Below are positions 10,587-11,861 of a stretch of 64,000 nucleotides of DNA, piece after piece. Below the pieces are notes generated by a model. The model saw only the letters and a program-made list of their open reading frames with translations, was not told where the DNA came from and ran no database searches. Every line of letters begins with the position of its first letter. Positions within the stretch are counted from its first letter, which is position 1. Origin of the DNA: Haloferax massiliensis (GTDB taxonomy: Archaea; Halobacteriota; Halobacteria; Halobacteriales; Haloferacaceae); assembly GCF_001368915.1 (NCBI RefSeq), contig NZ_CSTE01000002.1, positions 1,736,961 to 1,800,960 of the forward strand, written 5' to 3'. The position numbers were made by a program, and so were the translations under genes.

Positions 10587-10659
10587 GCCCGGGTGGTGTA
10601 GTGGCCCATCATACGACCCTGTCACGGTCGTGACGCGGGTTCAAATCCCGCCTCGGGCG
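10587..10659 (+). tRNA. tRNA-Asp (GTC), copy 1
   Basis: A 73-base tRNA with acceptor stem GCCCGGG paired to CTCGGGC (one G-U), discriminator G and no encoded CCA. The anticodon is GTC in the loop cctgtcacg, hence aspartate. The T arm (cgggttcaaatcccg) is a perfect 5-bp stem with the usual TTC loop. The sequence is identical to the second copy 29 bases downstream. Confidence 0.97.
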
Positions 10660-10688
10660 CTCTCCGTACCGCAAACTCACTTCAGTAA

Positions 10689-10761
10689 GCCCGGGTGGTG
10701 TAGTGGCCCATCATACGACCCTGTCACGGTCGTGACGCGGGTTCAAATCCCGCCTCGGGCG
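10689..10761 (+). tRNA. tRNA-Asp (GTC), copy 2
   Basis: Identical over all 73 bases to the upstream tRNA-Asp. The last 14 bases plus the following ~36 bases are repeated with one mismatch at 10969-11018, so a stub of a tRNA 3' end lies downstream. Aspartate tRNA duplication suits a proteome very rich in Asp, although that is only an inference. Confidence 0.97.
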
Positions 10762-11018
10762 CTTCTCTGATTTCAACTCCTCCAGCGAGGCGTCTCGTCG
10801 CCGAGCGACAGCGAGTGAAATCTGTGAACGTTGGCGGGTGGGATTTGAACCAAGGAGTGACGCGAACGGAGTGAGCAAAGCGACCGAGGCTCAAATCCCG
10901 TCACACCCGTTCGTTCACGTCGTTCACTCACGGGAGTTCCTGAGTTCACCTCACGCTGTTCGGTGAACTCCCGCCTCGGGCGCGTCTCTGATTTCAACTC
11001 CTCCAGCGAGGCGTCTCG
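10748..11018. repeat. 50-bp direct repeat of the tRNA-Asp 3' end flanking palindromic filler; gene-free stretch 10762-11103
   Basis: Bases 10748-10797 (tRNA 3' end plus flank) recur at 10969-11018 with one difference. The 171 bases between contain nested inverted repeats: gatttcaactc with gagtgaaatc, and gggatttga (10851-10859) with tcaaatccc, the latter being the T-arm sequence in both orientations. No protein-coding reading is convincing in 10762-11103; a minus-strand open frame through it merely translates these repeats. The arrangement resembles att-site duplication at a tRNA end, or the gene-end duplications seen after etfA and the radical SAM gene. Confidence 0.75.
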
Positions 11019-11103: not shown

Positions 11104-11861
11104 ATGTCAGATGATATGTCCAGACCTCCTAACTCACGGTGGTGGTATGGAGTGGCATTCTTCATCGGAGTTTTAGGTCTCACATGGGCTTCGTACGGTC
11201 TCCTCCACTTAGTTAGCGAACCCCAAGTTGGCTCTCCCCCAACTCTCGTTCCATCCGGTCCAGAGACTGGATTATTATTTCTATTCTCCTTGATTACGGT
11301 AGCGGCGACGATTCTGATCGGTGGTCTTCTAGCACCTCTGTACTGGCACTGTCTAGTTAGTGACCTCCTCAACCGGCGTTCGTCCGTCGAGCGATTGATG
11401 CGGTCGGTGGAAGTTATAGTATTGCGCAAATTGTATAAACCACTCGCGGACGCTCCCATGACTGCCCACCCACGAATTATGGAAGCGGTCGACTCGCACT
11501 TTGAGCTGGAGGCGAACACCCTGACGGGTGTCGCCGTCCGCTCACGCTCCCAAGTTTCTTCTAAATCCGCCGCAAAGCACTCGCTGAGAAGGTCTGCGAG
11601 CGTCATGATCAATTCACTCAAGGACCTGCTCGTTCCTCAAACTGGCTTAACTAGACAGTGCCTCTGTACTCAATATGTCTTTACCTAGATGTCAAAGCGC
11701 TCCAGCAGAACAACAGCGATTGGACACCGAACCGAGTATTGTGGGGAGTCATTAGCGTACTGCACCTTGGTTCGTTTGTGTTCTCAGCCGTGCAGCTGAT
11801 AACGATTCCAGCAGGAGTTGTGTATCTATACAAGCGTCACAAAGAGGTCAAGCTCAGTTAA
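11104..11861 (+). pseudogene. Small membrane protein gene split by an IS6-type element
   Basis: Bases 11104-11343 encode 80 residues with two hydrophobic helices (about 14-34 and 55-75). Bases 11671-11861 continue with one or two more helices and end in a basic tail (LYKRHKEVKLS). A 318-bp element with an 8-bp target duplication separates them. Removing 11345-11670 or 11337-11662 joins the halves in frame at PLY|SICLYLDVKAL, giving a 143-residue protein. As it stands, translation from 11104 runs through the element and stops at 11688 (194 residues). The helix-rich pattern with a LYLD and YLYKRH ending is seen in haloarchaeal membrane proteins of unknown role; no function is assigned. Codon usage and GC content are lower than in neighbouring genes. 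Confidence 0.85.
11345..11662 (-). mobile_element. Internally deleted IS6-family (ISH14-like) element, MITE-like
   Basis: The 318-bp element has perfect 15-bp terminal inverted repeats (ggcactgtctagtta at 11345-11359, its complement at 11648-11662). It is flanked by the 8-bp duplication tctgtact (11337-11344 and 11663-11670); 8-bp duplications are typical of the IS6 family. On the minus strand it retains the transposase N-terminus (11606-11514, MTLADLLSECFAADLEE... TPVRVF) and C-terminus (11505-11353, including VDRFHNSWVGS and HRPHQSLDGRTPVEEV, stop inside the repeat). The middle, with the DDE catalytic core, is missing and the two ends are out of frame. It can therefore move only if a full-length relative elsewhere supplies transposase. 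Confidence 0.93.

Follow-up and report, generated by a model that had tools for sequence, protein, structure and literature searches.

An IS6-family insertion splits a membrane-protein gene of Haloferax massiliensis, and its miniature form is probably an assembly artefact

We analyzed a 64,000-nt stretch of the Haloferax massiliensis Arc-Hr genome (NZ_CSTE01000002.1, positions 1,736,961 to 1,800,960, forward strand), hereafter the window. A 318-bp insert with perfect 15-bp inverted ends and an 8-bp duplication, TCTGTACT, separates the two halves of one small membrane-protein gene (Table 1). The 5′ part ends in the first copy of the target-site duplication (TSD), which forms its last 8 bp. The halves now lie in reading frames of 194 aa (11104-11688) and 67 aa (11658-11861), and rejoining the flanks with a single TSD gives 143 codons plus a stop in one frame. 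The inverted ends, duplication, insert length, and rejoined 143-residue frame had all been read from this sequence in an initial annotation, and we recovered each of them at the same positions. The gene adjoins two tandem, identical tRNA-Asp(GTC) genes (window 10587-10762). A 53-nt direct repeat (10745-10797 and 10966-11018), made up of the tRNA 3′ end and the sequence that follows it, has copies that are 96% identical and spaced by 221 bp; it resembles the boundaries that an integrative element leaves behind at a tRNA gene.

Table 1. Features of the split gene and its insert (positions in the window)
Feature	Position	Strand	Basis
Split membrane-protein gene, 5′ part	11104..11344	+	Alignment of residues 1-80 to eight uninterrupted orthologues
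Target-site duplication, left copy TCTGTACT	11337..11344	.	Sequence
IS6-family insertion as assembled, 318 bp	11345..11662	-	Transposase frame on minus strand
Terminal inverted repeat, left	11345..11359	+	GGCACTGTCTAGTTA, 15/15
GAG, 3-bp overlap; 426 bp of IS absent; probable false assembly join	11503..11505	.	Comparison with full-length copy
1-nt deletion in transposase frame, common to full-length copy B	11510..11511	.	Comparison with copies
Terminal inverted repeat, right	11648..11662	-	GGCACTGTCTAGTTA, 15/15
Target-site duplication, right copy TCTGTACT	11663..11670	.	Sequence
Split membrane-protein gene, 3′ part to stop codon	11671..11861	+	Frame joining, orthologue alignment

The product of the split gene matched no family among the Pfam and NCBIfam models, and its several hydrophobic stretches are in keeping with a small membrane protein. 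Uninterrupted orthologues, which had been predicted to exist, were first matched in two genomes (G034 and G005). When the G034 orthologue was used as the query, close relatives (77-85% identical) were found in at least eight other haloarchaeal genomes. All were continuous across the insertion point (...LLAPLYS[I/L/V]C[L/I]YLD...), and none was interrupted at the site. Of the 391 class-level genomes searched, these eight included, 140 have some match. The distribution of the gene is patchy, and it is present also on Halorubrum plasmids.

By sequence comparison, the insert is a member of the IS6 family. It has the short, near-perfect terminal repeats and the 8-bp target duplication of that family, and its terminal repeat occurred twice in the window, where 0.01 matches were expected at up to two mismatches, indicating that the repeat is not due to chance. 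The insert itself carries only the ends of the transposase frame, and the IS6-type DDE transposase was instead identified in a sister copy on contig C1 of the same genome. This sister (copy A, C1:515595-516339, 745 bp) encodes an apparently intact 228-aa transposase that matches NF033587 (transpos_IS6) at 6.6e-61 and 205.5 bits (cut-off 125), bearing out the IS6-type assignment of the initial annotation. IS6 elements range from about 700 to 890 bp; the full-length copies here measure 744-746 bp, whereas the window copy measures 318 bp as assembled. Full-length copies of about 745 bp occur in this genome and on plasmids of Haloferax, Natrinema, and Haloterrigena.

A second full-length copy (copy B, C1:514601-515344) has a 1-nt frameshift in its transposase that is also found in the window insert. 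The left 161 bp and right 160 bp of the insert are the ends of copy B, and apart from a 426-bp gap the two are identical at 313 of 313 compared positions, i.e., all of the insert except 5 terminal bases missing from copy B; this identity agrees with the earlier view that the insertion was recent. The gene disruption is an ordinary, recent IS insertion, real in kind. The missing 426 bp lies between two GAG triplets. Copies A and B share 93% identity over a 740-bp alignment and form an IS6 composite (locus L010, C1:514443-516474), in which copy B, 250 bp, and copy A follow each other, the copies being in direct orientation and TTAATGCC standing on each outer side; its junction between the B end and the start of the 250-bp segment recurs in another Haloferax draft (G007 contig C5, locus L030).

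A search of the genome for further copies of the short element had also been proposed, and one with the same junction does exist, although it matches copy A, not B. This second insert (319 bp, C2:132479-132797) lies immediately 5′ of a 122-aa reading frame, has its own 8-bp TSD, GGCTCTGT, lacks the same 426 bp, and is joined at the same GAG (C2:132637-132639); it is identical to copy A at 319 of 319 positions. Since each short insert agrees at every compared position with a different full-length copy, and these copies are only 93% identical, the two short inserts do not, in any simple way, descend from one short common ancestor.

Several features make a genuine miniature element worth weighing, namely a non-autonomous, MITE-like IS6 derivative deleted at GAG and mobilised in trans by the copy A transposase to this gene and to C2:132479. 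The window insert is clean in sequence and possesses both ends and a TSD, as a real miniature element would, and one junction in two copies also fits a real MITE family. Both copies have intact ends, their 8-bp TSDs differ, a transposase copy that appears intact is available within the genome, and two IS6-derived MITEs of 227 and 336 bp are listed in ISfinder (PMC7986276). This explanation must account for two differing copies, either by the same deletion occurring twice or by homogenisation of the arms through exchange with full-length copies. The type-specific differences between A and B nearest the junction, however, lie within about 10 bp on both sides, leaving hardly any space to exchange the deletion alone; we rejected the idea that short and long copies had exchanged sequence, by gene conversion or otherwise, to give the common junction, because a tract with only the deletion would be implausibly short. 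The recurrence of the same arm lengths and 3-bp join in an unrelated ParA-type gene copy (see below) also speaks against a MITE-like element, as does the absence of the junction from all other genomes searched. Overall, we consider this explanation unlikely.

The searches covered the genus and beyond. A whole-insert search of 14 other Haloferax species returned no copy with the same junction; the junction pattern gave only one unrelated chance match in GTDB contigs, from Hymenobacter, and the junction query found none among the PLSDB plasmids. Full-length copies, by contrast, were plentiful. A widespread miniature family was rejected on this basis. Rather than short copies that share one internal sequence and spread by transposition, we found two only, each equal to a different full-length parent, with none in the other genomes searched.

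Deletion events of other kinds were also considered. A deletion made by the transposase was rejected, as no IS end lies at the junction. The 3-bp direct repeat at the deletion ends would suit a real local deletion, in which a full-length type B IS was shortened in place by GAG slippage and the C2:132479 copy was shortened independently, but the same choice would have had to be made twice among about 2,700 microhomology deletions, and the ParA-type copy would be left unexplained; we regard this as exceedingly improbable. More generally, about 2,710 deletions of the IS are possible at microhomology of 3 bp or more, and only 5 of them leave arms equal within 1 bp. The GAG junction has near-equal arms and was seen twice on two backbones, which makes an origin by deletion unlikely. 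It seems very doubtful that both miniatures exist and that two diverged IS6 backbones lost the same 426 bp independently; if true, it would reveal a sequence-directed, recurrent haloarchaeal path by which full IS copies become miniature elements.

The assembly itself (4,015,175 bp, 8 contigs) rests on one mate-pair library run on a MiSeq and was put together using SPAdes, SSPACE, Opera, GapFiller, and manual tools (PMC5862939). We inspected joins in 2.77 of its 4.02 Mb (all but about 1.2 Mb of contig C2) and found clean internal-deletion joins at only three repeat loci: the two IS6 inserts and a ParA-type gene copy. Each of the three shows a 3-bp overlap, with arms of 157-161 bp. The ParA-type copy (C4:9613-9924), which is unrelated to IS6, has arms of 158 and 157 bp joined at C4:9768-9770, with about 1.03 kb missing. 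On either side of the intact ParA-type region (C4:141460-142845), its ends are repeated exactly in tandem, with 3-bp overlaps. In the assembly, six exact tandem duplications of 131-228 bp have copies that overlap by 3 or 4 bp where they meet; those at C4:128134/128362, C4:141275/141460, C4:142712/142843, C6:216504/216671, and C6:222814/223025 are probable untrimmed contig ends in the public draft genome. Other tandem pairs, which may be real, overlap by more (7-22 bp) or are separated by gaps. When single repeat units were taken out at the tandem duplications, reading frames did not become longer in any consistent manner, which supports neither side. A chance overlap of at least 3 bp is expected in about 5% of random joins, a figure that serves as a guide only, as the joins were found by seeking such structures.

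Similar traces surround the IS6 copies. In the block at C1:514443-516474, a 166-bp IS start is joined at TGT, and a 135-bp repeat (IS end plus TTAATGCC) is joined over 4 bp of overlap. At a third IS6 site (C1:135503-137517), 1,731 N separate IS arms of 130 and 154 bp; because of these N, the 2,015-bp stretch was rejected as a composite. As the published description reports an assembly without gaps (PMC5862939), the runs of N in the copy analyzed may be masking rather than scaffold gaps. The ParA region and IS6 each have one site where the repeat contig has untrimmed duplicated ends and another where the join is direct. The same join signature was present at unrelated repeats, both at the ParA-type copy and at the tandem joins.

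Because the same join, with arms of about 160 bp and a 3-bp overlap, occurs in a second IS type and in a ParA-type gene, a collapsed full-length IS is likelier than the deleted element proposed initially. We put the probability at roughly 0.87 that a full-length IS6 copy inserted recently, that gap closing removed its middle, and that the 318-bp element is artefactual. A type B element of about 745 bp would have entered the membrane-protein gene by replicative transposition, generating the 8-bp duplication and splitting the gene; with the copy B transposase frameshifted, this movement would depend on transposase supplied by an intact copy, for instance A. The draft contigs on either side would have extended about 160 bp into the repeated IS; their ends would then have been joined during gap closing at GAG, a chance 3-bp overlap, dropping the 426-bp middle and leaving an apparent miniature element absent from the cell. 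The patterns at these repeats are those expected if contigs ending about 130-190 bp inside a repeat were joined directly, joined untrimmed to the repeat contig, or left open. The insertion signature, the IS6 identity, the uninterrupted orthologues, and the shared join are direct observations; from them we infer an artificial join and a full-length real insert, although the latter could alternatively be a composite such as the B-cargo-A unit at C1:514606-516339. The deposited sequence does show a 318-bp insert, but the underlying 426-bp internal deletion is probably an assembly artefact.

IS6 elements transpose replicatively through cointegrates and generate an 8-bp duplication (PMC7986276). 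Restoration of the gene by precise loss, as suggested initially, is consequently a weak prospect: exact excision is not a normal IS6 reaction and needs rare slippage between the 8-bp repeats. The insert resembles the haloarchaeal IS6 branch (NF033587) in its 15-bp ends starting GGCACTGT, 8-bp TSD, and single transposase frame, but as assembled it is 318 bp and lacks the catalytic core, and type B also has the 1-nt frameshift. With IS6-derived MITEs it has in common both IS ends, the absence of transposase, an 8-bp TSD, and a similar size, whereas the deletion here is probably an assembly join and the two copies point to two parents, not one lineage. Its symmetric repeat arms of about 160 bp and minimal overlap join, the recurrence of that join in a repeat unrelated to it, and the duplication of contig ends at other places match the gap-closing errors of collapsed repeats in short-read drafts, from which, judged on sequence, we found no difference.

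Truncated IS6 ends of about 80-97 bp lie beside full copies, at 1-bp spacing, at L018, L030 (G007 contig C5), and L019 (G008 contig C14). In the G007 and G008 Haloferax drafts, these look like k-mer-length assembly remnants, so the problem may extend beyond the Arc-Hr genome. Collapsed IS copies in short mate-pair drafts can mimic miniature elements, perfect ends and target duplications included, and an identical minimal-overlap join at unrelated repeats is the tell-tale of such collapse.
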